A stretch of 64,000 bases of DNA from Lunularia cruciata (lineage: Eukaryota > Streptophyta > Marchantiopsida > Lunulariales > Lunulariaceae): assembly GCA_948567375.1 (NCBI GenBank), contig OX419755.1:48006291-48070290 (forward strand). Direction: 5' to 3'. Below, piece by piece: positions 976 to 25,339 of this stretch (the stretch's first letter is position 1; each line of letters starts with the position of its first letter). A program made the position numbers and the translations under genes. The notes beneath the pieces were generated by a model. That model was not told the origin of the DNA. It made no database searches and saw nothing but the letters and a program-made list of their open reading frames with translations.

Positions 976-1148
976 AGAGGATATTGATCATTGTCTAAAG
1001 TACAACAATAATTTGATGGCATAGTTTTTGTCAATTTATTTTGTACACGCAATTAATTTGGTGATTGAAATATTGAAGAATATCTTGCCATATTGTTGTA
1101 ATGTTACAAGAGCACCAGATGGAAGCAACAAACACAAGGGAGGATATT
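976..1148. repeat. left copy of a ~170-bp tandem duplication
   Basis: The sequence from GAGGATATTGATCATTG to about 1143 is repeated with roughly 85-90 percent identity (by eye) at 6005-6115. Family A element 1149-6004 lies exactly between the two copies and is flanked by the 5-bp duplication ATATT (1144-1148 and 6005-6009). Without the element, the two copies would be adjacent direct repeats. So the element landed in an existing tandem duplication and did not create it. Confidence 0.7.
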
Positions 1149-1859: not shown

Positions 1860-1860
1860 A

Positions 1861-1872
1861 TGGTATCAGAGC
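1861..1872 (+). promoter_or_regulatory. tRNA-Met primer binding site
   Basis: TGGTATCAGAGC begins two bases after the end of the 5' LTR. It is the standard plant retrotransposon primer site, complementary to the 3' end of initiator tRNA-Met. Confidence 0.92.
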
Positions 1873-2459
1873 AAGTATTTTAGTCCAAGAAAGTGGATCA
1901 CCCCTCTTGGAAGAGCACAAACTACTAAAATTGAGTAATTTGAGGTGGAGAACATAGAGTAAATGCTACACTTAGGAAGGACTTTAGAGAGCAGATGGGA
2001 TGGATGCACCAAGAGAAAAATTTCCCACACCTAGCTTTCCATTCTTGAATCCATTCCACATCAAGGTTATGTACATCCAACATGAACAAATGAGGGTATC
2101 CCGAGTCAATCACTTTGGTGCAGAATTCATGGACAGGGTGATGAACTCACCAAACCCGGTGATTCTACCTGTGGTGATATATGACAGAGTGGGATTTGAC
2201 AATCTATATTCTATTATGATGATATGGATGTGAATGTCCCAGATCCTCTCTTTTTCAACACTCAAGTAGAAATCCATTATGTAGTGAGACCAAAAGTGAT
2301 GTTTAGGAATTTTGTGGTTAGGAATTTTGGTGAGGAGTATTATCAACAAGTGAAAGCTTCTGAGGTCTTAATGGTAGTTCCGATAGTTTGTGAGCCTTCC
2401 AAAGTAATCATATTGACTGTGTATTGAAGTAAACATTAGCAATTGAGTGTTGCAGGAAA

Positions 2460-3530
2460 CATGGATCCACAATTGCAATAGATGGTGCAAGGAATGCAAG
2501 GGATGTTGAATGAATTTTGAGAGATTAAGATGACCATGGAGACATTACAAAGTCAAGTGCAGATCCTTAGAAACAATCAAGCAATGCAAGAAGAAGAGCC
2601 ATCTCAAAACCTAGTACTTGCGACTGAAATACTTGGAGAGGCACCTGTGCATACAAACCCTATCAATGATGAATCCCCATTTCTATTCTAGATGAAGAAG
2701 ACCTACAATATTGAGCCTTACAAGGGGCATCTTACGATGGGAGTAGTGGAAAATTGGATCTCGAGAATGAATTGATATTTTTGATTGTTCTCAATAGAGA
2801 TCATGGAGCATGTTGCAGGCGTGTTTGCATGTGGGTACTTGACCAATAAAGCCCTCACATGGTATGATGCTTGGGAACAATCCATGTTTGCAGAGAGAAG
2901 GGAGGTTATGTGGACAGCAATGCAAGAAGGATTGCTGAAGAATTTCCAATTGGTGGATTTTGTGCAGATGGCCCAAACCCGACTATGGGGATTGAGACAG
3001 AAGAAACAACATACAAGAGTATGTGGAGGCATTTCTGGATCTACAAGTCACAATAACCAACATGAGTCCAACAAAGGCTCTCGACAATTTCAAACAAGGA
3101 TTGAGGGAGCGGATTTGCCAAGAAGTCATGGTGCAAAATCCTTGCACAGTGTTTGAAGCCATTGCTTGTCCACAGAGGAAAACAAGAGCATTGGGTGGAG
3201 GTGAAGGAGTGGTTCTACCTCAACATTATTGGGCAGAAATGCCACACATGGGTGGACCAATACCGATGGAATTGGGTAACCTTTGATTTCAAGATAGAGG
3301 AGCACAACCGCTTCAAGGGGAGTGTGGACGGGTAGAAGAACAAAGAGATGGAGTCCCATGAGGAGAAGGAACTCAAGGAGAACAACACCGTTGTTACAAT
3401 TGTGGTCATATTGGGCACATATCTACCAACTGTCGCACTCATTTCCCTAGAGGCCCTCGGCCTTTGTACATAGAGAGGCATATTGAAGAGAAGGAGGTGG
3501 AAATCACTTTAGAAAATGAAGATTGCTAAT
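2460..3530 (+). pseudogene. gag remnant with zinc knuckle, family A
   Basis: The stretch encoding ALTWYDAWEQSM (about 2850) resembles the retrotransposon gag (nucleocapsid-like) domain of plant gypsy elements. A CCHC knuckle of the form CYNCGHIGHISTNC lies near 3390-3435. Gag would form the virus-like particle, and the knuckle binds element RNA. The fossil is broken in several places. The open stretch upstream at 2000-2440 is not recognisable as gag. Confidence 0.75.
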
Positions 3531-3619
3531 AAATGTACCTTGTGGCTTTATTGGCTCAATAAGGAAGCAAAGAAGCAAGGGAAGGAAGAAGACTAACACG
3601 CAAAGATTCCAAAAGGCAA

Positions 3620-4560
3620 CCTCACAATTGATTGTCATGAATGGAGTCCTAGAAGGCAATCAAGTGAAAGTATTAATAGATTTGGGAGCAACATAAAATT
3701 TCTTGTCTTGTTGTGTTGCAATAAGATTGGGAATGGATAGAGAGAGAGATGGGAGTGAAGAAGTATAGTTACCTAACGGGCAAACATAGAGGATTGAATC
3801 ATTACCTAGACGGATAATAATCTTTGTAGGAGAATATCAGGAAGCAATTGAGTGGCGAGTGATACAATTAGCTCGATATGATGCAATCTTAGGCATGCCA
3901 TGGATGGAGCAATCCAACTCTATGGTAGATTGGAGGAAGAAAGTAGTGAGAACACATCAATGGTCAATCATTGAGGTTAAAGAAAAATCACATATGCAAA
4001 AATTGCCTCTATATGTCATAGGGACAACAAATGTCTATAAGACCAATAGATGTTTCATGGGTTTAATAAGAGAAGTCCAAAGTGCACAACTTGATGAACA
4101 AATTCCTAAGAAATTGAAGGATATGGTGGATGAGTTTCAAGATGTCTTTCTTGATGATTTGCCCTTAGGATTACCACCAAAAAGGAGAGTAGATCATAAA
4201 ATTGAGACACTTCCGAGGAAGACACCTCCTTTTAAGGCCCCATATTGCCTATCACCTCATGAGTTGGAGGAGTGTAAGACTCAAATTGAGGAGATGCTCC
4301 AAAAAGGGTTCATCTAACCTAACACGTCACCATATGAGGCTCATGTCTTGTTTGTGAAGAAGAAGGATGGTGTAATGCGCATGTGCATTGACTATCGGGG
4401 TCTCAATCACCAAAAAATGAAGAACAAATACCTCTAACCTTGCATGGATGACCTGCTTGATCAACTCCATCGAGCAAGATACTTCACCAAATTGGACTTG
4501 TGGAGCGGTTACAATCAAATCTGAATTGCACAGGAGGATGTGTACAAAACTACCTTTCAA
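3620..4560 (+). pseudogene. protease and reverse transcriptase N-terminal region, family A
   Basis: The retropepsin end is marked by YDAILGMPWMEQ (about 3878-3913). The linker EFQDVFLDDLPLGLPP (from about 4132) is the hallmark leading into gypsy reverse transcriptase. The early RT motifs [18 protein letters not shown] (about 4353-4407) and YFTKLDLWSGYNQI (about 4474-4515) follow. These parts process the polyprotein and copy the RNA. The region is broken. Confidence 0.85.
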
Positions 4561-4639
4561 ACCAAGTATGCATCCACCCATGTCACTTTGTTCTTCCTCA
4601 TGTATGGTGAGCATCCCTTCACACCTTCTTGCTTGATGA

Positions 4640-5240
4640 AGATCCATCTAGTGGCTACCAAGGTCGATGCAATCAACACATTTGTTTCTAGAATCCAACA
4701 AAGTGTGGAGAGCGCCAAACACACATTACAGATTGTGCAAAATTGACAAAGGCAATATGCTGATGCACACCGTAGGCACATGTAGTTCAATGTTGGGGAT
4801 CAAGTGTGGCTATTGATAACCAACCTCACATTAGTTAGACGTCTTAAGCTTAGACCTCATTTTATTGGGCCTTTCTTGATTCTTCATTGAGTCGGCGTTG
4901 TGGCCTATCACCTTGAGCTACCACCACAAATGAGGATTCATCCAGTGTTCCATGTTTCCCTACTATGCTGAGATGCTCCTTGATTAGGCCAATGTCATTC
5001 CACACAAGACATTTGATCTTGTCCGACACTCATTGATTGCATAGAGGAATATGAATTGGAGCATATTCTCCAAAAACGCATACATAGTACTTGCCATCCG
5101 CAGGTTGACTATCTAGTACAATGGAAAGGTTACCTCCTATATGAAGCAACCTAGGACCCATAGCCAATTTGACACATGCATGGGTGTTGGTGCAAGCGTT
5201 TGAGCAACAACTACACAACAAGGACGTTGCATCTTAAAAG
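4640..5240 (+). pseudogene. integrase tail and chromodomain, family A
   Basis: RQYADAHRRHMQFNVGDQVWL (two pieces shown in the sequence near 4750-4810) and PPQMRIHPVFHVSLL are the integrase C-terminal GPY/F-type region. EYELEHILQKR and DYLVQWKGYLLYEAT (5049-5150) are a chromodomain, which in this family is thought to direct integration to marked chromatin. The purine-rich tract AAAAGGAGGGAGG precedes the 3' LTR. The region is broken. Confidence 0.85.
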
Positions 5241-5250
5241 GAGGGAGGTT

Positions 5251-6004
5251 TGTAATACCAAGAGCTAGCCATATAATCTAGATGTGCAATTTGGTTTGGT
5301 AACATCTAGAATGATGTTATACATGATGGTCAAAATAGGTCAGATAGAAGCATCATCAAAAGAGTACTTCTACTAATAGGGTAGAAACCAAAATACACTT
5401 GAAAACCTTAGAACCAATAGCTAGACATATGATTTGAAGGTGAGAATTGGTTTGGTAACATCTGGAAGGATGTTACACATGATGTACTAAACAGATCAGA
5501 AAGAGGTATCACCAAAAGGGGACTTCTACTAATAGAGTAGGAACCAAAATATGCTTGAAATCTTTGAAGGCAATTTTGGAGGCCTAAACGGATGAATTAG
5601 ACCTTGATAATGTGCAGTTTCCCCCCCCCCCCCACCCTCCCAAACCCAAACAAAGGAAAGGTTGGCCTTCCCTCTCCCTTGGTTTGTCTCGTTGAGAGCT
5701 TCCCAACGGTACCTTACGTGATTTTGAGATTCCTATAGGAAGATTCCCTAAAAGATTCCCTCTTGTCAAAGCTTGTTTGACCAACCAGATATGATCTAGA
5801 CCAACATGTCACCCATCCAAGTAAGTAATCCAAGGGTGGAGCTTGCTGACATGTCACCTATCTATGTGCCTAATCCTATGGTGGAGTTTCCTTGGAAGAG
5901 ATCCTCTTTGTCTATATAATAAAGAGAAAGTGCTCCTTTGGGGGATTGGATGATTGAGTGTAAAACCTATGTTTTCTCTCTTCTCTTGTCCTTGGAGTAT
6001 TACA
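5251..6004 (+). repeat. 3' LTR of family A element
   Basis: Pair of the 1149-1859 LTR, with the same TGTAATACC start and GTATTACA end. It follows the polypurine tract and is followed by the target duplication ATATT (6005-6009). Confidence 0.92.
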
Positions 6005-6115
6005 ATATTGATCATTGGCTAAAGTACAACAATAATTTGATAGCATAGTTTTTATCAATGTATTTTGTACATGCTATTACTTTGATGATGGAGATGTTGG
6101 AGAATATCTTGCTGT
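6005..6115. repeat. right copy of the ~170-bp tandem duplication
   Basis: Begins ATATTGATCATTGGC and matches 980-1100. It is cut off by the solo LTR that starts at 6121. Confidence 0.7.
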
Positions 6116-6120
6116 ATTGC

Positions 6121-6727
6121 TATAAAGTTCCAAGGACATGAGAACTCTCAAGGAAATAAAAGAGAAGAAACACAAGAGAAACATGATACTTAATCACTCA
6201 ATACTTTGATGCTCCAAAGGAGCACGTTGTCTTTATTATATAGCAAAGAAGATACACTCAAAGGGAGCTCCACCCTTGGTTCATATATATATGGATTGGT
6301 GATATTTTAGCAAGCTCTACCTTTAGATTTTTTGCATTGATTGGTGATATGTCTATCCTTATCCTATATGGTTGATCAAACAAGGTTGATAGGAAGGAAT
6401 CTTTGTGGAATCTTTCTATAGGAAGCTCAAAATAGCATAGTGAGGTACTGTTGGAAAGCTCTCAACAAGACAAACAAGGAAGAGAAAGCAACTCTTTCTC
6501 TCTTGGAAGGGGAGGCAATCTTTCATGTTTCAAGTCCTTATTCATTCATTTAGGCCTCCAAAATTAAATTTAAAGATTTTTGGGTGTTTTTGGCCTTTTC
6601 TCTATTAGTGCAAGTACTCCTTTGGTGATAGATCTATTTGATCTACTTAGACCATCATATATAATATTCTTCTAGATATTGCCAAGCTTCTTTCCACCTT
6701 CAAATATATCTAGCTAATGATATTGCA
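6121..6727 (-). mobile_element. solo LTR of family A, reverse orientation
   Basis: Aligns in reverse with the family A LTR, including the block with GCTCC...AAGGAGCAC and the end motif read as TTGCAAT. Perfect 5-bp duplications ATTGC occur at 6116-6120 and 6728-6732. The termini have diverged more than in the other copies, so it is older. Solo LTRs arise by recombination between the two LTRs of a full element. Confidence 0.85.
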
Positions 6728-6854: not shown

Positions 6855-6960
6855 TGTTGTGCGTATATACATTGCTACACAACATACATCGATGTCAACA
6901 TCATACACTATAGAAGCACAACTCACACATAAGTCATACATAGACTCTAAAGTGCCACAA
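6855..6960 (-). repeat. outer copy of the 106-bp repeat R, family C copy 1
   Basis: On the minus strand it runs from TTGTGGCACTTTAGAG to GCACAACA. It is the near-identical partner of 7412-7517. The 3' LTR lies between the two. The same arrangement recurs in copy 2. Confidence 0.85.
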
Positions 6961-7409
6961 TAATCAGATTGCTTACCACTCTCAACTCAACTCAACTCAG
7001 ATCAGTACTTGATCTGTCACTCTATAAACTGCCAACAACTGGGCACTGATTACAGTTAAGCCACACCCACTCAAGCATAGAGAATCCAAGTGACGCTCAC
7101 CGGCCTCTGTCCACCATAGCCAAAAACTCGAAGGCTCAACATCAAAGAAGTGAGCTCTCTAGAGCTCACTTCAAAACTATACCCCCTGGACTTGAGCTAG
7201 CTCTGAAACCCTAACGGTCCCATTGACGGTACACTTGACGGTGAAAACGGTGCAAAGTGATGGTGGGCCCTACCGTGAAGTCAATACCCCAAACACAAAA
7301 TCTGATTGTCAAAAAGTAGTCTCTAAGAAACTACTGAAATAACTCTAACTACTATCACTAGAACTCCAGTGTCCGAGCATCTAGATGCGGCACTACAAAT
7401 GGCATGACA
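6961..7409 (-). repeat. 3' LTR of family C copy 1
   Basis: On the minus strand it begins TGTCATGCCATTTG and ends near GATTA. It matches 16361-16819 over its full length apart from the last few bases at the inner end. Confidence 0.88.
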
Positions 7410-7411
7410 GT

Positions 7412-7517
7412 TGTCGTGCATATATACTTTGCTAAACAACATACATTGCTATCATCATCATACACTATAAAAGCACAACTCACACATAAGTCATACATAG
7501 ACTCTAAAGTGCCACAA
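7412..7517 (-). repeat. inner copy of repeat R, family C copy 1
   Basis: Same 106-bp sequence as 6855-6960, placed just before the 3' LTR where a polypurine tract would be expected. Confidence 0.85.
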
Positions 7518-7685
7518 TCACCTCCCTAGCTGGCGGTTAGGCCCCTCTAACTCCAGATAGCCATCTACTCTAAGTATATGGTATACCCTCTAATGGGCAA
7601 AGATCAAGATGCCGGGTACTATGGAGCCCCATCATTAGTCACATGTTTGCAATCTATACCATATAAAGAATGAACTAGCTATAGG

Positions 7686-7910
7686 TCAAGTACATCTAGA
7701 ACATAACCATTGTCCTTGAGGAACCACCGTGAAGGGAGGAGTCATGCATGCCATATGCCATCCTCTCAAACAACTATCACACACTAACATAGTAGCAGCT
7801 CCACCAGAAGAGCCACATAACATACACCTCAAGCCTGCACGTACAAGTGCCAAGATTGGGTCCATAGTACCATCAATGTTTGGAAGGTGGCATGGTGCAC
7901 AACTTTGCAC
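7686..7910 (-). pseudogene. PHD finger at the end of pol, family C copy 1
   Basis: A 74-codon open stretch contains a full C4HC3 pattern: CMLC, 11 residues, CDSC, four residues, H, two residues, C, fourteen residues, CSRC. The lead-up PPFTVVPQGQW to the last pair matches the PHD consensus PPL..VP.G.W.C. PHD fingers read histone H3 tails. In plant chromoviruses the same position usually holds a chromodomain, so a targeting role is a reasonable inference. The same module is kept in copy 2 at 28060-28208. Confidence 0.9.
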
Positions 7911-7959
7911 ATGATCCTTCTAAAAAACACCATCACGTCCTTCTAACACAAGGACTCCA

Positions 7960-8990
7960 GATGGCAAAACCTTGCGCACTCTCAAGATAGTGTGGCCTGT
8001 AGAAATATCAAGTGTCGTTGGTGCTGTCTGCTATAGATATACATAGTCGCTTGGATGAAATCGACAAATTGAGGGTCTATAACCTCCTCCTCAAATGGTA
8101 GCATAGCGTAAAGTATCCCTATGTTGAGCAATCACCAAGTTCTCAAAGGCCATCGGCATCACTCTCTGAAAGATCTTTGCCCGCTGAGAACATGCGCTCA
8201 TCCATACATTGGGGTCATCCAAGTCCAAAACTACAGTAGCATCTTGACAAATGGCTGCAGGTAAATCTGGATCTCATCCATAGAGTAGAAAGTATGGAGA
8301 GAAGGATGCTAAGGAGGCTTGCCGGCTGAACCGATAGCCCATGGCCAACCAAGGTAATTGGAGATCCCAATCTCCCAAGTGGACTCTCTGCAAACCATAC
8401 TTTTGCAATCTTCTCTTCATTGTCTAAACCACTCTCTCTGCTAAGCCATCTGCCTTAGGGTGATCTCAGGATGTAGTACAATGATCAATCAAGGCCTTGT
8501 CACACAAGACCTGAAACTCCCCCAAGAACTCTGTACCCTGATCAGTCAAAACCTTAGTTGGTGTACCAAAATGACTAAGAACTTGATCCAAGAACGAGTA
8601 AGTTGTCCCTTCACTAGACTTGTCGGGAAGTGCCACCAACTCAATCTACTTGGAGAAGTGCTCCACCATCACCAAAACATACCAATGATGTCTCATAGTC
8701 AATGGTAAAGGTCCGGTGAAGTCCAAACTCCAACGGTAACCCAATCCCATGATAGGTAATGGGTGTAACTGTGGCGTAGGAGCATTGAATGATGCTCTAA
8801 CTTGGTCACAAACCACACATCTGGCAACAAACTGCTGTACCTCGGTCTGCATACCGTGCCACCAATAATGACTCTAGAGTAAGCTATATGTACGCTTTAC
8901 TCCAAAATGTCCTAGCTCCTCATGAGCATGACGGACCAACTGTGGTCTCTAGGATAGAAGTGGTACTACTCGCACTCTACCATCCTCCCA
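7960..8990 (-). pseudogene. integrase, family C copy 1
   Basis: The zinc-binding part shows HEELGHFGVKRTY and CVVCDQVRASFNAP (about 8780-8930). The core follows with WSLDFTGPLPL, VLVMVEHFSKWIEL and LTDQGTEFLGEF. The downstream DPNVWMSACSQRA region is the usual tail. It inserts the DNA copy into the genome. The region is broken. Confidence 0.85.
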
Positions 8991-9239
8991 TACACGCAAA
9001 AGGTGTCTACCCTCCAATCTGAACCGTCTGGCTTGCTGAAGAACATGGTCTCTCTCCTTGGCCCCAATTGTGCCACCCACAACACCAGTGCAAAGATAGT
9101 CCATCACTAAGACATCATCATGAATGTCTCGCTAAACTGTACCAATATCTTCACTCTCTGGATTTGTGACCTCAATAACTCATCCTGTATGCGCTAAGAG
9201 AGATACCACCAAAGCATCTGCAAATATACACAGAAGGCT

Positions 9240-9770
9240 GATGCATGCCAACTTGGCACCATCTCCTCATCTGTCTCACCATGCCAACGTGCTCCGGTCT
9301 GATCCTGCTGGCTGGGACATGGGTTTCTACTCAACCCATCTGCATCACAGTTCACCACTCCAGGTCTATGAACAACCATGAAATCATACTCTTGTAAAAT
9401 TAGAGCCCATCGTGCAAGCTTCCCGGAAAGCTTGTCGGACTCCATCAACCAATTCAGTGGCTGATGATCAATGATGAGAGTGAAGGGGTTACCAAATAGG
9501 TAACATCAAAAATGTGGTATTGCCCAAACTGCTGCCAAGCACTTTCTCTCATATGAACTATACTTCACCTCCGCTGAATTGTTGGAGTGACTAGCATAGG
9601 CCACCACAAACTCCTTCTCCTCATCATCATGTTGGGTGAGCACCGCTCCAAGCCCCAACATACTCCAATCAATATGAACCTGAAATAGTCATCCCCTGAT
9701 TGGTCTCCTCAAAATAGGAGCAGATGTCAACCTCTCCTTGAGCTCTACAAAAGCTCTCTCCTGCTCATCT
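9240..9770 (-). pseudogene. RNase H region, family C copy 1
   Basis: [33 protein letters not shown] and MVVHRPGVVNCDADGLSRN are typical gypsy RNase H signatures, ending in the conserved H.PG..N..AD.LSR motif. Confidence 0.85.
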
Positions 9771-9829
9771 CCCCAATACCACTCCTATGTAAGCTTGGTC
9801 AGCTTCGTCAAGGCCTTGGAAATGGCACT

Positions 9830-10570
9830 AAATCCTCTAACATAGCGGCGATAGAAGTTCACCAACCCAAGGAATGCTCACACTCTGCTCACATCCGTAG
9901 GCCAAGGAATACGTGCAATAGCCTCCACCTTGGTCTGCTGAACACCAAGTCCTCTGGGATAGATAGTGTGACCCAAATACTCAACCTGCTCACAGAAGAA
10001 CCTACACTTCCCAAGATGTAATTTGAGTCCATGAGATCTTAACCTCTCAAACTCCTCCAACAACTATCTTTCATGCTCCTCCATAGTAGTGCTATAGACC
10101 AAAATGTCATCAATATAACACCGAGCAAAATCCAATCCAGCTAGGATCCTATCCATGACCCTTTGGAACTCAGCAGGAGCATTCTTTAACCCACATGGTA
10201 AGAATCTCCACTAATATAACACATCTTTGCCGTGAGGATCAATAGCCCAAAATGTTGTCTTGGACTTATCCTCCTCCTCCTTGATCGGCAACTGATGATA
10301 TCCCACTCAAAGATCCAAAGTACTAAAGATCTTTGCATGCCCAATCGCATCAAAAATCTTCTCCGGTGTAGGCATGGCATACCGATCAGCCCTGGTCTAT
10401 CGGTTGATAGGACGGTAACCTCCACACATCCGCCTATTTGTATAGTTGCCATGCATATCCTTCTTGGCTGGCATCACTGTCACTAATTAATACTCTCCAT
10501 GTGAAATCTCCACCAAACCAGCCTCAAAAAGGTCCTACTCCGGCTCTGAATCAATGTTTTCTCCATATCA
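9830..10570 (-). pseudogene. reverse transcriptase, family C copy 1
   Basis: The catalytic box reads YIDDILVYS near 10085-10112. It is followed by HLGKCRFFCEQVEYLGHTI (about 9965-10020), the standard thumb-side motif. Upstream are DLRVGYHQLPIKEEDK-like and NRRMCGGYR-like stretches around 10270-10430. It copies the element RNA. The region is broken. Confidence 0.85.
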
Positions 10571-10799
10571 CTGTATTGATAAGGACGTCAAAAAACTGGT
10601 GTGTTGCTAGTCAGCTCAATCCGTATACCAGGTCCCTTAGAGCACCCAAATCCTTCATACTAAAGGCAAAACAACTCATGTGACTCCTCAAGAACCTCCA
10701 AACCCTCCGTCTTTCCTCTCTTGTAAGCTTGGGTCGAAGATCTAGCTCCCAAGTATCCTCTATAACTAGAGTAGGAGTGGAAGACGTAATGACTGGCTA

Positions 10800-11100
10800 C
10801 TACACTGGGCCCTTAGGAGCAATAATGTCATGCTCCCGACCACTAGACATCCCAACCTCTATGTGGAAAACTCCCTCCACTATGGCTGCAAGCTCTACAC
10901 GTCTTCTAGCTGCATCCCATGTGGACCAAGGATGTAATCCAAGTAGCCCACGCTCACCTAGATGGACTTCAAGTAGACCACTCTCCCTTGTAGCTACTGG
11001 ATGTGTCCCCGGAATACCATGTCCACTCGGTCCATCACCCCCAATATGTGCCTGAATTGTCTTCATAGGCACAGGGCTCACAAGTGTCAGAGTGGTGATG
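10800..11100 (-). pseudogene. unrecognised linker between methyltransferase and reverse transcriptase, copy 1
   Basis: An open stretch reading GPSGHGIPGTHPVATRESG, then two short similar blocks (ESGLLEVHLG and ERGLLGLHPW), then FHIEVGMSSGREHD. I recognise no domain. The same stretch is conserved at 24830-25083 in copy 2, so it was part of the family's coding region. It may be a tether between domains. Confidence 0.6.
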
Positions 11101-12070
11101 CCTATCAAGCGCATCCTACGCTGCTCTGCCAAGCCAAGGCTCACAATCCAAGTCAAACAGTTCAAGTCCATAGCCTGACCTAACACTTGATGCTTGGATG
11201 CCTCTAACACTGCTGGAACAACGGTAATACTGGTGTGAAAACCCATTGCCCGCCCTCTCTTATCAACGTTGGGCTCCACCAACTGCTGTAATTGTGAGTC
11301 CCAAACAAGTCCAGGTCCTCCCTCTCGAAAAGCATGAGAGCCTAGGAAACTCATGAGTGTGGGAAATGCAGCTCTAGGCTATCCAACTAGATTCACCATT
11401 GCCATAGGTGACCTCTCAGCCACTACCACTGTCTAAGACTGACGCCCAACATCCAAGATATCATCAACAAGGATGTGGTCAAGTCGCTGAATCCCATCAT
11501 AAGTGCACTATAGAACCTCTCTGGGTAAGAGGTTTGTCCACCAAAGACGAAGATGATGAGCCCATGATCTCACTCTGGCTGCATCTAACAATATAGTAGA
11601 TCACATCCAAGAATAGACCTGATGTGTACTCACCACCACTCTAGTGCAAGAATCACCCATCAAAGGAACATTCTCCAAAAGGTAAGCTGGAGAAACAGAT
11701 TGATGAACCTACAGATGTGGTAGTATCCGTAACATCTCCCAAAACACACTAGAACAAGGATCCTAAAGACCCAATCCTCTACCACCACGTGTATGTCCTT
11801 GACATGGCCATCCAAAAATCACCAAGTGAATAGGCCCATATCTCTTTAGGTCATGTGCCCCCAGTAAGGAAATGTCTCTTGGTAGGACTTTTTGGTAACC
11901 TCTGACTGTTGATATTGATAATAACTCCAGATACCAATAGGCCAAGTATGCCACATGATGTAGAGAGACTCGCCTAGCAGTCTCATCTCTCTCTATATAC
12001 AAGTACCTCTATACTTGTATACCCGCCTATAACACCGCAGCTAGTCCGGTGTTGATCCCACCAAAAAACT
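11100..12070 (-). pseudogene. C5-cytosine DNA methyltransferase-like region, family C copy 1
   Basis: Motifs appear in canonical order on the minus strand. FFGGINTGLAAVL (about 12030-12070) resembles motif I. IFGWPCQGHTRGGRGLGL (about 11763-11815) carries the PCQ catalytic motif IV. LLENVPLMGDS (about 11655-11690) is motif VI with ENV. A DNMT3-like block, AHHLRLWWTNLLP, follows. MGFHTSIT (about 11232-11256) and LGQAMDLNCLTWIVS (about 11145-11190) fit motifs IX and X. The span of about 313 codons equals a usual catalytic domain. The order is I to X, not permuted as in plant DRM enzymes. In a working ancestor it would transfer methyl groups to cytosine, perhaps on the element's own DNA. This copy is broken. 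Copy 2 keeps the same block at 23830-24800. Confidence 0.85.
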
Positions 12071-12439
12071 TCAATAGGCATATCCCCTCTACTAGATACT
12101 ACCAAGCAATGAGTGTGGTATCCAGAGGTGTCAAAGAAATTGCCTCTGGAGGCTCATCCTTACACTCATCTCTTGATGGTACAAAGGCTCCACTCCAAGC
12201 CTGTTGCACCAATTGATCTGCATGCTGCTGCAATGCCTCCTCTGAACTCCACAATGGAACATCCAAGGTAGATGGAATGATCCTACTTGTACTCCAAAGC
12301 CAAGTGATCTCCTCTGGTACTGGAGTATCTTCTGCATGGGCGTTCCTCTCCAACAAGTCACCAGGCCAAGTAACTGCACCACTAAAAGCTAAAACTGATG
12401 CTGCCATGGTCCCGGACTATAGTGAGCTTGCCACTACAG

Positions 12440-12870
12440 TCCGGAGAACTGCCACTACTAAAGCGTACTGGTAGGCGACATACCCGTCCCTCACCAGACT
12501 GCCAACCAGGTCTATAAGAGGCTATCTCCTCCCAATAGTCAATGCTAAAACCCATGGGGTATAACACTACTCCCCCAACTAGCACATTATATGACTCAGC
12601 TATTGTCGCAATAGCCTGAGCTCTCACTACCAAGCTATCAGTTGGATGACCAGGCTGAACCTGGACAACAAGCTCTCCACATGTGATGTACTATGTCAAA
12701 CCACCACCTAGAGATGTTTGGATCTGAAATGGACACCTCTCCACATCCGTCTTTCGTAACTCCAGACCAACAACTGTAGCCTTTCCCAACATAAGGGGCT
12801 ATGCACCAGAGTCTAACAAGACTCTCTATGGTGTATAGACCTTCCTTGAAGGTCCTACCAAACAAAAAAT
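12440..12870 (-). pseudogene. retropepsin-like protease, family C copy 1
   Basis: The minus strand reads VLLDSGAQPLMLGKA-like sequence near 12780-12840 (the DSGA catalytic motif). It then continues to a conserved SYNVLVGGVVLYPMGFSID block (12540-12600) that corresponds to the ILG end of the fold. It would cut the polyprotein. A 340-bp coding stretch (12099-12440) with no recognised domain lies between it and the methyltransferase region. Confidence 0.8.
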
Positions 12871-13299
12871 CCCCCTTTGGTTATCCAATAGGACAACAAC
12901 ATGTGTGAACCGTGCTCTCTCAAAGGCCGGTCTAGTTGGCAACTCCTCCAGTCTAGCCACTATTGCCTGCCATAAACCATTGGTTGTTGAATGGATCCCA
13001 TGCTCCTCAACCAAGTCAGGTCCACTACCAACCACCTCTGCTCTAGTAGTAGGAACTGCACCATCCCTACTCTCACACAACGTGGCAGCCAACCGGAATA
13101 TTGGGGCTGGATCAACTCCCAATGTAAACATATCACTGGCCAAAAACAAAGGACCCCGCATAATCAGCTGAGCCACCCCCAACATCATGCTAGACTCAGT
13201 CTGTGTAGTAGTAGGTGGCTAACTAGTAGGTAGTCCATCATGTACTCCATCACCACCTACCACACCTACACTAGGACATCTAAGAACCATGGATGTTGT

Positions 13300-15060
13300 C
13301 TACAATGCCTCAGATAGCATGAAAGACTGGGGAAGTTTGACCTGTCTCCCAACCTCTCCTCTTTTGTGGGTCCAACTCCACTGATACTCCTCTAGGCTCT
13401 GGAGCACGTATTGCACTCCTAGTCACTACTGCAAATGCATCCACCTGTGCTATTCCGCACATGAAGTCCAAAGCATCTCTATCACCAGCATATGAGGTGG
13501 AAGCCTTAGCACCCAAATCTGATCTCCTTTGAGCAATAGCCATACTAGCCAATCTCCGCTCCAACTACTCAATCCAAGTAGCCATAATTGTGTCAAAAGT
13601 AAGGGCAGGTACCACACCCGTACTAGGTGTAGATCCTCTACCACCACCTCTACCACCTCGTCCTCCATGAACTAGAGCTCCTCTACTACCAGCCATAGCA
13701 GCCCTATCATTCCGTAACTCCGGGTGTAGGTCAAAACACCGGTCATTAGTGTGACCAAATCTGTGGCAGTGCTCACATTGCCTCTATGCTGGCTATGATG
13801 CACCAGAGGTATCAGGTCCGCTTCCTTGAGTACACTCTCTCCTATGGTGAGGTCCACCACAAGTCCAACAAGCAACACCACCACTCATTGGCTGCTGCTG
13901 ACTCAAAAATGAAGGTAAGGGTCTAACTTCACTAGGCCCTCTACTCGCTCCATAGGATCTGGTCTGTCCATCTTGTCCTTGAAAACCAATTGGGCGTGGT
14001 CCCCTCTGTTGCACTCTAGAAGAAATCATAGCCGTGGGGGAGGTCTTCCTACCAAATCCAGATGTCACCACTCTCTCCTCCACCATGTTGAGCTCAATAC
14101 GCTCAGCCAAACCAAAGACCACTGCCAAAGTAGGCAAAGTAGCCTGTAACAATGTAGCATCATGAACTCTACGTTGTTACTCCTTGTCCAGTATCCCATA
14201 CCAAAATTGGATTGCCTGAGCCTCAGTAACTCCTTGAGTGAAACTGATCAGCCGCCTCATGCGAGTGTATGCCTCACGTAGGCTCTCTCTAGCCTTCCGC
14301 TAGAACTCTTGCAAGCTCCTCAGCTTGTCAGCCCGCACTCCTTGGTAGTTCTGCCTCAAACATAGGAAGAACTCCACCATGGGGTTAAACCCCGGTACCA
14401 CACCACCTCCTACAGCGGTACTTCCACTCGTAGTAGCACTATCTCCAACTAGTGCACCTCCACTAGCTCCACCCACATTACTTGAGCTAGAACTCATAGG
14501 TATATCCAATCTACTCCTGGCCACCAAACCTGAAGTGATAAAGACATAGTTTGGAGACCAATACTATCTCCATAACTTGATCTCTTCCAAATGAGCTCTC
14601 CTGAATTCATGGTAGTCATCCATTGGTGGACCCTCTAGATGCTGAAACAACCCCTTCCATGCCATGAAAAGTGTGAACAAAGTCGGGTTCCGCATCTGCT
14701 GCAGATCACACCAACTATCAAACTCTTGGATGAAGTCATCTAGCTCAATGGTACCCACTATACCAGAGTAACGCCTAGGGCCTTTGGAGGCCCCATAAAT
14801 CTTGTCCATGTCCCACAACAACGATACAGACACACCAAGTACACTCTCAACTGAATCAACTCCTGTGTCGAACTCCAACTCAGAGTCAATCTCCTCCCTC
14901 ATTGGGACCTGAGATACAAGCTGATACCGAGCACCACTCCGAGTAAACCCATTGCATACTATAGGGCTAACTCCTCTAGAATCTCCAAAGAACTCCGTCG
15001 TGACAAAGTAACCACAACAACAAACCCAAACCCAAACTACCAACTGCAACCGCAAGTCGC
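13300..15060 (-). pseudogene. gag with two zinc knuckles, family C copy 1
   Basis: The N-terminal open stretch (14564-15055) contains LDDFIQEFDSWCDLQQMRNP, a gag capsid-type region. Two knuckles follow: CWTCGGPHHRREC near 13835-13875 and CEHCHRFGHTNDRCF near 13735-13780. Paired knuckles of different spacing bind RNA. A Gly/Ser/Ala-rich linker sits around 14400-14500. The region is broken. Confidence 0.8.
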
Positions 15061-16360
15061 AACCGCAAGTACCCCATCAAGTGCCAACACCACCACGTGC
15101 CAATACCAACTAAGCACCACCCACTAATGTAACTCTAACCGAGATAACTACACTAAGGGAAAGGGTAACCTGTAACCTGCCATCATAACACGCACTCTCA
15201 CGATTTGCAGGTCATCACTTCCTACCTCACCGGAGAGAAACAAAGGTAGTCTGACTGGTCATCACTCCAGCCTCACCACCAAGAGCACACCAGAGCACCA
15301 ACGCTCAAAAGTCAAGGCACCTCACACAAACGTGGTACACAAATAGGAAGCAAAGAATGGAAGGGATCCAATCACAAGAAATCTAAACAAAAACCCTCCA
15401 TCTCATAACACAACATGGGACTGACTCTGCCACCATTTGGCATTTGACATAAGAGAAGTTTGTATCTAAGTCCTAAGCTACTAGGATCACCAAGAATGGG
15501 ATCAGATTGCCTCTCCTAGCCAAAGTTACATGTGTATAGATAATAGTGGCACAATCACTAGGACAACAAGTGAGGGTGGACCAATTGGCTAGGGCACCAG
15601 TTTAGGAACAAGAGATCTTGGGGTCAAACCCTATTGCGCACAATCTAGCAGGAAAGGAAAATTTTGCCAACCAATGACCAAGATCTACTCTAAACTAGCT
15701 AGTCTCACGCCAACAAGGTGGCTTATTGGCCCTTCTGGCCCTTCTGGCCCTTCTAGGCCTTCGTAGCCTCTCATAGCCCTATGTCTCAAAATGCCAAAAT
15801 TCAGCCAAATGAGGCCTTTCTTGTTGCCACTTCAAGCCTCCTTTCTTGTTGCCACTTCGAACCTCCTCCAAAATTGGCAAAAATTCTCCCAATCTGCAAA
15901 AGTCCTCCAAACTAGCAAAACTCCTCCAAATCTGGCAAAAATCTGTCTTAAAATTTGATGTAAACCCTAAAGTTGGTTGTCCGCCAAATCCCCCGCTAAC
16001 TTTCCACTCAAGCCAAATTGACAACATAGGATTTCTCCAAATCGAAAATTCATGAGAATAGCTTCACAACTCCACCTTCAATTTGACTTTCTAAGCCCAA
16101 CTCGCAACAAATTGGTCATGTCTTCACCTCCTGAGCTCAAAATCACAACCACTGCTCAAAATTTGCTACTTCTTTGCTCAAAATTTGGCTAGCGCTTCTG
16201 CACACCGTCTGCCTTACTGCCAAATCTGCATCAATAGATTGAGCTTCTGCACACTAGAGAAACACTGAACTTGAATCGACCTACCAACAATCCACCGAGC
16301 TTGGAGATACCACCAACACTCAAAGTTCCTGCACCCGATTTCCCCCTTACTTCACTTTTC
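15060..16360 (-). other. 5' leader of family C copy 1
   Basis: Lies between gag and the 5' LTR with no long open frame. It contains a small run of repeated CCCTTCTGG-type units near 15731-15765. The first 60 bases next to the LTR match the leader of copy 2, including GGGTGCAGGAACT-like sequence. No initiator tRNA-Met primer site is visible, so the primer tRNA is unidentified. Confidence 0.6.
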
Positions 16361-16819
16361 TGATGTAATCAGATTGCTTACCACTCTCAACTCAACTCAA
16401 CTCAACTCATATCAATAATTGATCTATCACTCTATAAATTGCCAACAATTGGACATTGATTACAGTCAAGCCACACCCACTCAAGCATAGAGAATCCAGG
16501 TGACGCTCGCCGGCCTCTATCCACCATAGCCAGGAACTCGAAGGCTCAACATTAGAGAAGTGAGCTCTCTGGAGCTCACTTTGAAACTATACTTCCTAGA
16601 CTTGAGCTAGCTCTGAAACCCTAACGGTCCCGCTGACGGCACACTCGATGGTGCGAACGGTGCAAAGTGATGGTGGGCTCCACCGTGAAGTCAATACCTT
16701 GAACACAAAATCTGACCGTCGGAAAGTAGTCTCTGAGAAACTACTTAAATAACTCTGACTACTATCACTAGAACTCCAATGTCCAAGCATCTAGATGCGG
16801 CACTACAAATGGCATGACA
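16361..16819 (-). repeat. 5' LTR of family C copy 1
   Basis: 459 bp. On the minus strand it runs from TGTCATGCCATTTG to GATTACATCA. Pair of 6961-7409. It carries a short CAACT pentamer run near its inner end (about 16387-16409). Confidence 0.9.
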
Positions 16820-19518
16820 AATGACTTACAAAAGAGATTGCATCATCACAAGAGAAGGATCAATTGCTTAGATGTTGCAAAAGGAAATTCTAGCAAATGG
16901 CAGAATTGGCATTATGACAATGACACATGGTCATCTTGTGACACCTACAAACAAAGGTCAATGCAAGAAAAGACAAGGTTGTGGAGCAACAAGCCCAACA
17001 CAAAGAATAGATCAAGGCAAGAGACAAAGAGGTGATGACCATTAAGATAGAATGGGAGGCTACCAACATTAAGGAAACTATGACAAAGGTTGTAAAAGAA
17101 CTTGAAGGAACTTACCAACCTTCATATTTAGGAACTCACAAAAGCATGAAATGATCATGGGACAGGAGAAGGAAATCAAAACAAAGGTACAAGAAGACTG
17201 CAGTCAAACTCCAACAAGAATAAGAAAACTTTACAAACAAGCCTACATGGCTTCTCACAACCATAAGGCACATGGCAACCAACTTCTAGGCCAACTAGAA
17301 TGATTGGTCAATGAAACACAAACCAAAAAAGATCAAAGCCTTCAAGATATAGATCAAGGATCTTATGAGGAAGGTATAGACCTTCCTTTATGACAAATGA
17401 CCAATTAATGGCCCTATCTTTGAAGTTGTAGAGTCATACAAACTCCAAGTTTAAGGAGGCACAAACAAGCATTGCAAACAAGGTTTCCGGTTACAAGAAG
17501 GACCTTATGTAGCTCATTCAAATTTATAAAGGTAGAGGTAACTAGTCATCATCACCACCAAATTGTCTTGCAATTGAGTAACAATCCCAACAATATCTAA
17601 CAAATAGAGTTGCAACAAACTTAGTAATAAGCAATTCATCTCATAATTTTTCATCTTCTAGTCATTCACACCTCATAGTTTGTTTACATCTTGTCGTCAT
17701 AGCTTCATACTTATAAATAGTTCATAGTCAGAGTATATATGAAATCCAAGTGGAACCCTATGACAAATGAAGATATAAAAAATTTGTTGAGGTGGGAGCT
17801 CCATGTTAAAAATGCCTACTTAGAGATTAAATAAGGATAAGATTAAGATAAAATTAGTGAGGCCTAGGTGGAATTAGAAGATCTCCAACACTTTGTAGCC
17901 ACTAGATCTCTTTGGTAGTTAAGTTGGAAATGTATATAGAGTTTGGACTTAATGTTTACTATGTTCATTTGGTGCATCTTTCCATTGTAATAAATGAGGA
18001 TTATACCATGAAACCTATCATGTTAGTGTTTTTGTATGTGTATGTGTCTATAAGAATGTCTACATAATTAATCAATTAGGCATGAGGAATCTTGGCATAG
18101 AGGCATAAGTACTAGAGTGAATGAATCATTCACAAGGAACTAGAGGGTGAACCTCTAAGTGCTATACACATGTCAAGAATTATATCATAATGGACATTTC
18201 CATATCTAAGTATTGTTAAGTACCATGCACTCTGAGACTGAGCAATGTACCAATCTAATCATTTTTAAAGTAGTGCTTTTTGGGAAGGGTAGGTGCCACT
18301 ATGTTATAGTTGTAGATAATAGGGAGATATGATCCTTGAGTGATCTAAATCCAGTCTAGTTTTTGCATTCCATCCTACTACTTGTAGACACCATGAGAAC
18401 TATTTATCTTGTGCAACCAAAATTTTGTAATTAGTGGTACGGAGTTCAGATTGATGTTCATTATCTTGATGATAGTAAGCACAAACTTGGCCACAATAAT
18501 TGGAGGATAAAGAAATTCTAAAGCAACAAGTGACCTTTGTTACAAAGGATCAATCATCTTCAAGAATCCTCAAGACTATATTTATAGTGAAAGTGATTTG
18601 AAATCATTTATATTTCCATAGTATGCCAATAAGGGTGACATTCCTTTTTTTAAGGAATGACTTTTCCCAAGAGATTAAATAAAAAATAATAGATTGTATT
18701 CTTTGTGACAATTTTACCTTCTTTCTAGTCATATCTACCTTCTCCTTGTAGGATTGACCAATTCTTACCATAATATTACAAATTTGAAAGACACTATGTT
18801 GTTATAATGAGTTCAAACTCAATTTCTTCCTCCATGAGAAGTCAAAGTAGAGTGTCTTTATAAGGCCACTAGCTTGTTTGTGTTGACTTGTATTATGAAA
18901 CATTGAAGATACAAAGCCATGATTTTACAAAGTTGTGAGAAGATGACTAGGTTGGTAGTTACAAGCTCTGCTTACTCATATAACAAGACTAGTGACCCCA
19001 TTCATGAACACATGGATCTTTACCTCTGTTAATTCTTTATCTTGTCCATTTTATGGAGGTGTATAATGATAAACAAACATCCCTTCATTTTTGTCATGTA
19101 TCTTGTACACTACTTCACTTTATCTTTTAAACTAAACCCTAAAATTTTATTCCTCTCTAGTAGGATAAAGATGGGTTACCACCATTGATTTCTGCCCAAG
19201 AGATAAAATAAGTGACAATACAAATTTGAAGAGTGATTTTTTTATTTTTTTATTTATTCTTGAATTATATCTCATGGGGTCAACTTGTTTCTTATTAAAT
19301 TACTATAATTTGGTCATTATCATATTGTAACACTTGGTCAACCCAATAGTATTTTAACACCACTTATTTACCAAGTCAATTTGACTATGAAAAATCCAAG
19401 ATATAGGTCACTTTCCATTATAATTCAATATAACACCCCCTACAAAGTCCACACTCATTGTAGAATTCTCCTAGGACTTCCCATTCTAAGTAATCTAATT
19501 AAAAGTCACTAAGGATGT
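16820..19518. other. spacer between the two family C copies, nothing recognised
   Basis: 2.7 kb of AT-rich DNA with no credible gene. The first 220 bases hold a 73-codon open frame, rich in Lys, Asn and Gln, that matches nothing I know. The part around 17720-18060 has an LTR-like look but no second copy in the window. Confidence 0.4.
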
Positions 19519-19957
19519 TGTCATACCATTTGTAGTGCTGTAGCTAGATTGCTCAGACAGTGGAGTTCTAGTGTTAGTAGTTAGATGCATTTTGGCAATT
19601 ACTCATAGATTACTTTCCAATGGTCGGATTTTGTGTTTAGTGTACTGACTTCATGGTGGGGCCCATTGTCTGCACCATCAAAAGTGTCGTCAATGGGACT
19701 ATTGGGATGAGACCTAGGTCAAAATCAGGAGTATACCTTGGAAGTGCAGCTCTAGAGAGCTCACCGCTCTGATGTTGAGCCTTCGAGTTCCTGGCTAGAG
19801 TGGACAAAAAGCCGGCGTGCGTCACTTGGAGTCTCTTAGCTAGAGTGGGTATGGCTTGACTATAATCAGTGCCTAGTTATTGGCAAGTTGTTGAGGATCA
19901 GATCAAGTATTGATCTGAATTTGATTGATTTGAGTTGTAAACAATTTGGTTACATCA
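19519..19957 (+). repeat. 5' LTR of family C copy 2
   Basis: Starts TGTCATACCATTTGTAG and ends GGTTACATCA. Aligns with 28488-28932 and with both LTRs of copy 1. Confidence 0.88.
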
Positions 19958-20689
19958 GAGAAGTCAATCAAGGAGAAATTGGGTGTAGGAACTACAAGTG
20001 TTGGTATTTCCAAGCTCAGTGGATTGTGGTGTCTCAATCAAGTAGTTCAGATTTCCCTGAGAAAGTGTGTGTGTGGAAGCATTGGCAAAATTTGGAGCCA
20101 AGGAAGAAGCAATTTTCAAGCTGTAGTTGTGATTTGGAGCTCAGGACCAATTTGTTACGAGTTGAGCTGAGAAACTGAAATTGAAGGTGGAGTTAAGAGT
20201 AGATCCTCACAAATTGAAGATTGGACAAAACCCATTTTCCCAATTTGGCTCGAGTGAAGAGTTAGTTGAGGATTTCATTGTCAACTATTTTTAGGGAGTT
20301 ACGTTAGATTTTTGGTGAGAAGAACTTGAATCTGATCCTCGGTGAACCTCGTAGCTTAGGAAGTAGATATGTACTCCAATTATGTCAAATGCCAAATGGT
20401 TGCAAAGTCAGTCTTGTATTGATTTATGAAATGGAGGGTTGTTGTTTAGCATTATTGTGATTGGACCCCCTCCATTCTTTACTTCATGTTTGTGCACAAT
20501 GTTTGTGTGAGGTGCCTTGAATTTTGAGTGTCAGTGCTCTTGTGTGCTCTCGATAGTGAGACTAGAGTGATGACCGGTCAGACTATCTTTGTTTCTCTCC
20601 GGTGAGGTAGGAAGTGATGACCTGCAGACTGTGAGAATATGTGTTGTGATAGCAAGTTATAGGTCGCCCTTGCCCCTAGTGTATTTGTC

Positions 20690-20865
20690 TCGGTTAGAGT
20701 TATATTAGTGGACAATGTTCCGGCAAGTTTTGGCACTTGGTGGTGCTTGGTTGGTATAGGCACTTGGTGGTGCTTGGTTAGTGTTGGCACTTGGTGGTGC
20801 TTGGTTGGTATTGGCACTTGGTGGTGCTTGGTTAGTGTTGGCACTTGGTGGTGTTTGCACTTGGT
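20690..20865 (+). repeat. 27-bp tandem repeat in family C leader
   Basis: About five units built on GGCACTTGGTGGTGCTTGGT plus a 7-base variable end (TGGTATA or TAGTGTT, alternating). The matching place in copy 1 (15060-15115) has only one or two units, so the array expanded in copy 2 or shrank in copy 1. Units alternate in type, which suggests the duplicated block was a pair of units. Confidence 0.85.
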
Positions 20866-20872
20866 CTAGTAC

Positions 20873-22610
20873 TTGTTGTTGCAGTTTGCGGCTGCGGTTG
20901 TAGTTGCGGTTACTTTGTCACGACGGAGTTCTTTAGGGATTCCAGGAGATAGCTTTGCAGTACGCAGTAAGTTTACTTGGAGTAACGCTCAATATCAGCC
21001 TATATCTCTGGTCCCCGTGAGAGAAGAGATTGACTCTAAGTTGGAGTTTGATATAGGAGTTGATCCAGTGGAGAGTGCACTTGTTGTACCTGCATCATTT
21101 TTGTGGGACATGGATAAGATTTATGGGGCCTTGAAGGGCCTTAGGCATTACTCTAGTATAGTGGGTACCATTGAGTTGGATGATTTCATCTAGGAGTTTG
21201 ATAGTTGGTGTGATCTGTAGCAGATGCGGAACCCAACTTTGTTCACCCCTTTCATGGCATGGAGGGGGTTTCAACATTTGGAGGGTTGCCAATGTATGAC
21301 TACCATGAATTCAGGAGAGCTCATTAGGAGGAGATTGAGTTATGAAGACAATATTGGTCTCCAAACTATATCTCTATCACTTTAGGCTTGGTTTCTAGAA
21401 GTAGATTGGCTGAACCTACAAGTTCTAGCTTGAGTAGTGTTGGTAGAGCTAGTGGAGTTGCACTAGCTGGAGATACTGCTACTACAAGTGGAGGTACCGC
21501 TATAAGAGGTGGTGTGGTACCGGGGTTTAACCCCATGGTGGAGTTCTTTTGTGTTTGAGGCAAAACTACTAGGGAGTGCGGACTGACAAGCCAAGGAGCT
21601 TGCAAGAGTTCCAACAGAAGGCTGGAGAGAGCCTACGCAAGGCATACACTTGCATGAGGCAACTGATCAGTTTCACTCAAGGAGTTACGGAGGCCCAAGC
21701 AATCCAATTTTGGTATGGGATATTGGACAGGGAGTTGTAGTGTAGAGTTTGTGATGCTACGTTGTTACAAGCTCCTTTGCCTACTTTGGCAGTGGTCTTT
21801 GGTTTGGCTGAGCGTATTGAGCTTAACATGGTCTGAGAGAGTGGAGAGAGTCGTGACATCTAGATTTGGTAGGGAGACCTCATCCATGGTTGTGACTTCT
21901 TCTAGAGTGCAATAGAGTGCACCACGCCCAGTTAGTTTTCAAGGACAAGGTGGACAGTCCAAATCCTATGGAGCAAGTAGAGGGCCTAGTGGAATTAGAC
22001 CCTTACCTTCATTTTTGGGTCAACAGCAGCCAATGAGTAGTGGTGTTGCTTGTTGGACTTGTGGTAGACCTCACCATCGGAGAGAGTGTACTCAGGGCAG
22101 CGGACCTAATACCTCTAGTGCATCGCAACCAGCACAGACGTAGTGTGAGCATTGCCATAGATTTGGTCACACTAGTGACCGATGCTTTGACCTATACCCG
22201 GAGTTATAGAGTGGTAGGGCTGTTATGGTAGGTAGTAGAGGAGCTCCAGTCATGGAGGACAATGTGGTAGAGGATCTACATCTAGTAGGGGTGCAATACC
22301 TGCCCTTACTTCTGATATAGCTATGGCTACTTGGATTGAGCAGTTGGAGCAGAGATTGGCTAGTATGGCTATTGCTTAGAGGAGATCAGATTTGGGTGTT
22401 GAGGCTTCCACCTCATATGTTAGTGATAGAGATGCTTTGGACTTCATGTGCGGAGCAACACAGGTGGATGCATCTGTAGCAGTGATTAGGAGTGCAGTAT
22501 GTGCTCCAAAGCCTAGAGGAGCATTAGTGGAGTTGGACCCACAAAGAGGAGAGGTTGGGAGATAGGTCAGACTCCCCTACTCTTTCATGCTATCTAAGGC
22601 ATTGCAGACA
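20873..22610 (+). pseudogene. gag with two zinc knuckles, family C copy 2
   Basis: Matches gag of copy 1: the LWDMDKIYGALKGLRHYS block (about 21105-21155), CWTCGRPHHRREC (about 22053-22091) and CEHCHRFGHTSDRCF (about 22143-22187). The region is broken. Confidence 0.8.
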
Positions 22611-25337: not shown

Positions 25338-25339
25338 AG

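Follow-up and report, generated by a model that had tools for sequence, protein, structure and literature searches.

Retroelements rank among the chief targets of DNA methylation, so those that encode a de novo methyltransferase themselves pose a puzzle; one charophyte gypsy example of such an element was found in print. This is KnitGypsy-Dnmt3 of Klebsormidium nitens, a gypsy element with a DNMT3-type methyltransferase (de Mendoza et al. 2018, PMC5890265). The main text of that paper describes its repeats as DIRS-like, in the layout A-coding-B-A-B, and reports that the isolated domain produced no methylation in yeast, a result that the authors call inconclusive. Also treated there are SymbioDIRS-Dnmt3 and SymbioLINE-Dnmt of Symbiodinium, retroelements that likewise captured a DNMT and of which the DIRS ones have the A-coding-B-A-B layout; these have tyrosine recombinase or LINE machinery, whereas the element reported here has a DDE integrase, TG...CA ends and 4-bp duplications (PMC5890265). 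In the passage concerned, PMC12344493 cites the 2018 paper for streptophyte and dinoflagellate retrotransposons that contain DNMT3, and a 2019 review stated that methylase-bearing transposons are absent from land plants, such as tracheophytes (PMC6338049).

Other systems resemble our element in part. Chromoviruses are Ty3/gypsy elements with a chromatin-reading domain at the integrase end (PMC3350952, PMC2864245), but our element has a PHD finger and no chromodomain there, and an extra methyltransferase. Ginger1 DNA transposons have a gypsy-type integrase, with a C-terminal PHD in one listed family; they differ in being DNA transposons, in having the PHD beside an Ulp1 protease and in that the passages concerned mention no DNMT (PMC2836005). 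Orchid Ty3/gypsy elements with an m6A demethylase domain are another case of plant gypsies that captured a nucleic-acid-modification enzyme, although the enzyme is a different one and the event, by the paper's title, is recent (PMC9289625).

The element shares with KnitGypsy-Dnmt3 the gypsy domains, an unpermuted DNMT3-type methyltransferase and A-coding-B-A-B repeats, and the K. nitens integrase-PHD proteins P0073 and P0094 fall on its side of a 100/99 branch in our integrase tree; a probable kinship between the two rests on layout and integrase. It differs in that its lineage has land-plant members. It may also differ in ORF layout: its methyltransferase closes a first open reading frame (ORF1) at a UAG, and the paper speaks of a Pol polyprotein ORF (PMC5890265). 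The main text of that paper makes no mention of PHD, Marchantia or Volvox. Among the titles and abstract openings listed in a literature search that also covered later work on KnitGypsy (several lists were capped; subscription papers, figures and supplements lay outside its scope), there was no report of gypsy elements with a PHD finger and none of DNMT-bearing bryophyte elements. What is already known is thus the charophyte gypsy precedent with the same repeat layout; new here are the land-plant DNMT gypsy elements, the PHD finger, the UAG joint, the insertion signature of the split repeats and a second arrangement of domains.

An earlier sequence-only reading of the window, by which we mean the whole stretch of 64,000 nucleotides analysed, had named the 2018 precedent correctly (PMC5890265). 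It had also supposed that the element might extend the list beyond dinoflagellates and charophytes, and this is borne out by relatives named Marchantia polymorpha, Calypogeia fissa and Sphagnum. Such proteins contradict the wider form of the statement on land-plant absence (PMC6338049), and with the Marchantia members the system is found in a plant that serves as a genetic model.

Two gypsy copies and their methyltransferase

Two copies of the element lie in the window on opposite strands, copy A at 6855-16820 (minus) and copy B at 19518-29040 (plus), and they were 86.6% alike over 9387 aligned columns. Family profiles gave both the same domain order: Gag, zinc knuckle, protease, methyltransferase, reverse transcriptase (RT), RNase H, integrase and PHD finger. 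RT and RNase H stand before a DDE integrase, the order that marks Ty3/gypsy elements. The methyltransferase and PHD profiles had no further match elsewhere in the window.

In copy A the family profiles placed Gag at 14114-14437 (Pfam Retrotrans_gag gave E 0.014 on a larger piece, below the cut-off), the zinc knuckle at 13712-13777, the protease at 12484-12888 (Pfam RVP_2 gave only E 0.26), the methyltransferase at 11127-12086, RT at 9947-10489, RNase H at 9368-9781 and the integrase at 8250-8924 (also PF00665, E 6.6e-14), all on the minus strand; profile scores of this copy are flattered, as its reads were in the set from which the profiles were built, and copy B was outside that set. The PHD finger of copy A (7692-7826, minus strand) matched PF00628 with E 6.8e-11 and kept its eight zinc ligands. 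In copy B, on the plus strand, the same profiles found Gag at 21546-21800, the zinc knuckle at 22144-22215, the protease at 23019-23420, the methyltransferase at 23810-24756 in three frame pieces, RT at 25409-25951, RNase H at 26116-26528 in two frames, the integrase at 26973-27647 and the PHD finger at 28071-28205 (2.4e-16). Neither copy is functional, because copy A has eight in-frame stops within the methyltransferase domain (residues 158-374) and copy B is frameshifted; both are old and dead. The leader of copy B, upstream of Gag, also contains a 27/54-bp tandem repeat (20726-20857).

The sequence-only reading had described C5-methyltransferase motifs in a set order on the minus strand at 11100-12070, and we found all of them in one frame of copy A, within profile bounds close to that extent. 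The protease that it saw on one side and the RT on the other were found upstream and downstream of the domain at the positions given above. It was also right to place the methyltransferase within a gypsy element and between protease and RT; a position within pol did not stand, as the block forms the C-terminal portion of an ORF1 closed by a UAG. The PHD finger and the split repeats were absent from its description.

The resemblance to a methyltransferase exceeds chance. In the profile check that the reading had proposed, against PF00145, copy A gave E 6.6e-4 and 19.6 bits and copy B 18.5 bits, below the 22-bit cut-off, whereas the relative P0002 passed with 35.2 bits; the weak score of copy A is due to its decay. 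We compared a single-frame read of copy A, with X at the stops, with solved chains. The best match was DNMT3A (E 3.9e-8 over residues 7-192), and the next groups were DNMT3B (4.1e-5) and HaeIII (0.0025), with DRM2 at 0.15. A profile of 38 relatives matched DNMT3A at 5.3e-25, DRM chains at 2.6e-14 to 7.2e-12, HhaI at 4.2e-8 and a DNMT2-type tRNA enzyme at 7.1e-8; the two best DRM-type chains, entitled just 'DNA methyltransferase', we take to be tobacco DRM. The motifs run I, IV, VI, VIII, X. This order is unpermuted, and the domain is therefore DNMT3-like and not DRM, in which the motifs are rearranged; the profile ranks also favour DNMT3A. An origin from DNMT1 was rejected on motif order and profile ranks as well. 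We concluded that the domain is, as judged by sequence, of DNMT3 type.

Young copies, the UAG joint and the split repeats

The window's own genome was searched over 565,766,749 bases in 74 contigs, and 62 of 17360 candidates were scored, so that the counts are lower bounds. The lineage occurred in at least 62 places, at 65-68% identity to residues 139-664 of P0002; 28 of the 62 had no stop over the compared stretch, and open frames reached 1447 residues. Fetched loci sit on contigs of 60-85 Mb. Forty of the 62 places were fetched around the ORF1/ORF2 joint (L103-L142). Among 39 of these (L126 was omitted from distance and selection counts for its length difference) copies differed by a median of 1.5%, and 20 of the 40 were stop-free across 523 codons. 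Beside the dead window copies, the genome thus harbours many young members of the lineage. The 28 stops in the remaining copies comprised 21 TAG, seven TGA and no TAA, the pattern expected from C-to-T decay (CAG, CGA) or from G-to-A changes of TGG.

Eight own-genome loci were read for domains. The sequence-only reading had held that family members lacking the block between protease and RT would count against it; protease, DNMT and RT were present in all eight, which had been fetched with a query containing the methyltransferase block.

The methyltransferase ends ORF1 (Gag-protease-DNMT), and ORF2 continues in the same frame after the UAG. In copy B this stop lies at 25081-25083 (plus strand) in the context UAG-CAG-CCA, and in copy A, at 10800-10802 (minus strand), it is followed by TAG CCA. 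All eight loci read had a stop at the same place past the DNMT with RT then in frame, in L098 after a further gap. In the own-genome copies the joint was TAG in 39 of 40 and TAG-CARYYA in 38 of 40; UAG-CAR-YYA is the readthrough context of tobacco-mosaic-virus type. A distant relative, L054, has an ORF1 of Gag, zinc knuckle, protease and DNMT that is open to the contig start, then TAG CAA TCA, and then RT, RNase H, integrase and PHD as an ORF2 in one frame. CARYYA followed one of 255 TAGs in copy B and one of 101 in L054, in both cases at the joint, and none of 233 in copy A. We rejected a chance origin of the context, since it stands at the joint alone in copy B and L054 and recurs in 38 of the 40 own copies. 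This context suggests that ribosomes may read through the UAG.

The UAG layout is not universal among relatives. The sequences of P0002, P0007, P0042 and P0199 end 79-81 residues past the domain, and in P0050, P0056, P0202 and P0203, as in the gene models P0020 and P0201, the DNMT continues into RT without a stop. RNA folding gave a structured stretch after the stop in L054 (z -4.4), where the stretch before the stop is also structured (z -2.6), and no structure after the stop in the window copies (z +0.9 and +1.7); we do not count this mixed result as support for readthrough.

Both window copies have the layout A1-coding-B1-A2-B2, by which their ends were set; the canonical LTR-coding-LTR layout was not found, and the element is filed as gypsy by its domains, the course taken in the 2018 paper for KnitGypsy-Dnmt3. 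In copy A (minus strand), A1 (16366-16820) and A2 (6961-7409) are 90.4% alike over 449 columns, and the 107-nt repeats B1 (7412-7518) and B2 (6855-6961) are 91.6% alike. In copy B (plus strand), A1 (19518-19941) and A2 (28486-28922) are 87.5% alike over 425 columns, and B1 (28379-28485) and B2 (28934-29040), again of 107 nt, are 93.5% alike. The flanks, CATT/CATC for copy A and ATGT/ATGC for copy B, agree in three of four bases.

Of eight own-genome copies fetched at both ends, six showed the full split layout, and in two the 3' stretch missed it. In these six, A1 and A2 were 97.4-99.1% and B1 and B2 99.0-100% alike, and we therefore regard them as young. All six, with both ends seen, had TG...CA ends and a 4-bp target duplication (ACTT, CACT, CCTC, AAGG, AGTA and CTTT, read by eye with TG as the first and CA as the last bases), which superseded an earlier assignment of 3-bp flanking repeats. 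TG...CA ends and a short duplication, of 4-6 bp, are those of Ty3/gypsy elements. From the ends and the duplication we concluded that the DDE integrase inserts the split-repeat element. Membership in DIRS was rejected: a PF00665 integrase was found, the pieces scanned held no PF00589, and the duplications are of 4 bp. The combination suggests that a DIRS-like layout needs no tyrosine recombinase. At the joint between B1 and A2, five of the six own copies read CA-GC-TG or CA-AC-TG (the alignment cut the sixth differently), copy B CA-GT-TG and copy A CA-AC-TG, as if joined element ends had served as template.

Relatives, the PHD finger and a second arrangement

A protein search with the methyltransferase region returned 61 proteins, with E down to 4.2e-152; by name, 12 were from Marchantia polymorpha, two from Calypogeia fissa, two from Sphagnum and one from a bacterial MAG. 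The full 320-residue domain was present in P0199 (Marchantia, from the third search below) and P0002 (Calypogeia), and the Sphagnum domains were partial (238 of 320 residues in P0016, 122 of 320 in P0042). The best 120 of the 250 proteins from an integrase-PHD search included three from Calypogeia, two each from Klebsormidium nitens, Volvox and Haematococcus, and one each from Marchantia, Riccia, Sphagnum and a MAG. PF00628 was found in 108 of these 120, a proportion inflated because the query itself contained a PHD. The third search, with 35 proteins, contributed ORF1s of about 1250-1450 residues, two proteins from Marchantia and, as a weak match, P0211 from Closterium. No K. nitens DNMT was among the proteins listed in the first and third searches. 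Because the relatives were fetched with DNMT- or PHD-containing queries, members without these domains are under-sampled.

Scans of viral contigs with P0001 and with the integrase alignment found no relative; with the DNMT alignment they gave 53 loci, whose best-segment identities were 25-44% over parts of the query. A scan of genome contigs gave 41 loci, and L054 alone of these is used here. This 9285-base contig is filed under a cyanobacterium MAG and holds a eukaryotic-type retroelement, which we read as contamination. Apparently eukaryotic retroelement sequence was seen in bacterial MAGs (Synechococcales, Obscuribacterales, Spirochaetia) as L054 (1-9285), P0024 and P0169. A separate long-branch methyltransferase group comprises P0043, P0046 and P0050-P0056, several with EHV for ENV and some with DNMT and RT in one ORF.

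The PHD finger follows the integrase in both window copies, and likewise in proteins of Klebsormidium, Volvox and Haematococcus. Six of the eight 3' stretches fetched from the own genome contain it, and the remaining two, as fetched, lack both the repeats and the PHD. Each of the eight zinc-ligand columns was Cys or His in 103 to 105 of 105 PHD rows, the window copy included, in a count that omits stretches of about 41 residues or less. The closest solved PHDs were a mixed group: CHD4, KMT2C/D, PHF12 and DPF3, and further down KDM5, PHF21A, ATXR5, BAZ2 and AIRE. Several of these bind unmodified H3K4. In animal DNMT3 with an ADD domain, too, the catalytic core is paired with a PHD-like histone reader; the element has a DNMT3 core and a PHD-like reader as well, but its reader and writer are on separate retroelement ORFs.

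In a second arrangement, the methyltransferase lies between RNase H and integrase. Among 213 sequences, 115 of which had the domain, it stood directly after the protease or directly before RT in 55, and directly after RNase H or before the integrase in 31. P0095 entered both counts (its position label PRRT was assigned by hand) and looks like a deletion join. The complete order RT, RNase H, DNMT, integrase, PHD was seen in two single ORFs, P0207 and P0209.

One branch of the methyltransferase tree separates the two positions, with support of 99/94 in a tree of 60 rows and 100/99 in one of 84, and in 100% of 200 bootstraps each; both trees omit domains of fewer than 230 residues, and the second also omits P0060 and P0061. 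The integrase tree keeps 67 of 124 rows, omitting stretches below 190 residues and rows that had no position label and no name either. A 100/99 branch of this tree holds K. nitens, Calypogeia, Riccia, L054 and the window element on one side. P0138 and P0151 are integrase-PHD elements of the second group in which no DNMT was detected between RNase H and integrase, and they are possible losses.

Constraint, proposed function and rival explanations

DNMT variants common to at least three own-genome copies numbered 6 nonsynonymous to 10 synonymous, where neutrality predicts about 2.2-2.5 to 1, and singletons numbered 33 to 19 (shared versus single, Fisher p 0.086); the count omits codons with more than two forms. 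Differences among these copies fell 33/22/46% by codon position. Together the figures hint that the DNMT may be under constraint in replicating copies. Between copies A and B, DNMT differences by codon position were 50/40/37, the flat pattern of neutral decay. C/T differences between the two copies were found at 137 of 355 CG, 229 of 665 CHG and 591 of 3579 CHH sites, and the CG and CHG excess is as expected after plant-type methylation.

The most likely explanation, in which we have good though not full confidence, is that the window holds old, dead copies of a gypsy lineage that has many young copies elsewhere and would carry both a chromatin writer and a chromatin reader, with readthrough, self-methylation and a PHD tether. 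Methyltransferase activity, a ligand for the PHD and readthrough are predictions from the anatomy of the element. Translation would yield mainly Gag-protease-DNMT3, and a minority of ribosomes would read through UAG-CAR-YYA and add RT, RNase H, integrase and PHD. The methyltransferase would thus be made in excess and, as part of the Gag precursor, would probably be packaged with the RNA; its most likely substrate would be the cDNA of the element itself, before integration or at that step. By analogy with the chromodomain of chromoviruses, the most likely role of the PHD, placed at the end of the integrase, is to tether integration to nucleosomes via a histone H3 tail. The PHD may also be a reason for the inactivity of the isolated domain in yeast, where the reader had been left out. 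The arrangement of the split repeats points to an intermediate that is circular or has two repeats, which the integrase may open at the B/A joint, where two bases separate CA from TG. The host presumably methylated the window copies at CG and CHG, as plants do, and they then decayed.

This explanation must be weighed against others. Were the module a chance insertion, or an artefact of assembly or nesting foreign to the element, the broken state of both window copies would be easy to understand; the same layout in both of them, in all eight own-genome loci read and in L054 refutes this, as do protease-DNMT proteins named as from liverworts and mosses and the single branch by which the domain tree splits the positions, and we give the idea almost no credence. 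It is less improbable, but still unlikely, that the methyltransferase serves self-protection or counter-silencing without methylating the element's DNA, by masking cDNA or RNA or by methylating RNA. The failure of the isolated KnitGypsy-Dnmt3 domain to methylate DNA in yeast is in keeping with such a role, and so is the main text of the 2018 paper, whose authors raise RNA methylation for the LINE relative (PMC5890265); a position in ORF1 beside Gag and the zinc knuckle would likewise fit an RNA-bound function. Against it, catalytic motifs are intact in 39 or 40 of 40 own-genome copies (GWPCQG and ENVP in 39), and relatives keep PCQ in 76 of the 93 rows that have residues at that site, WTN in 81 of 93 and ENV in 69 of 98 (EHV in nine more).

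Two histories were considered for the pair of arrangements, both of them in doubt. Two separate captures are possible, in which one gypsy line gained a DNMT3 ahead of RT and another, represented by Volvox P0133, gained a related DNMT3 ahead of the integrase. In each of the domain trees the two positions group apart, and the root is weakly placed: DNMT3A attaches by a long branch of low support (36/45) in the 84-row tree, which carries a long-branch warning, and long branches meet there. On the other side, a PHD after the integrase is common to the two groups, as is much sequence outside the catalytic motifs, and the integrase tree mirrors the position split except for P0138 and P0151, its labels needing three changes (none of 200 bootstrap trees needs only one). 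We hold equally tentatively that there was one ancient green-lineage gypsy clade, from Volvox-group algae to liverworts and mosses, with a DNMT3 writer that moved once and an integrase-tethered PHD reader, an analogue of DNMT3-ADD. If this single-clade history were true, the reader-writer pair would be an independent counterpart of DNMT3-ADD, through which an element picks unmarked chromatin and methylates itself on arrival.

The window contains further sequences of note. Other retroelement pieces matched by the family profiles were RT at 4375-4575 and 34060-34489, RNase H at 37131-37528 and integrase at 38511-39056. The stretch 34060-39536 (plus strand) holds relics of another gypsy element, with RT, RNase H and integrase pieces, no methyltransferase or PHD matches, and a Tf2-1-like SH3 domain (PF24626, E 1.2e-13). 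A tRNA scan found none. A dense family of diverged direct repeats of 80-300 nt occupies 43877-57773, and a further repeat family, whose copies run in either direction, lies at 981-6143 and 32440-33180. At 42988-49717 (plus strand) lies what appears to be a host gene split into parts, including an EGF-like stretch (ORF 47836-48507, weak Pfam matches), and at 60211-62034 (minus strand) there are exons, one of which resembles inositol polyphosphate kinase (PF03770, E 3.8e-4, below the cut-off).
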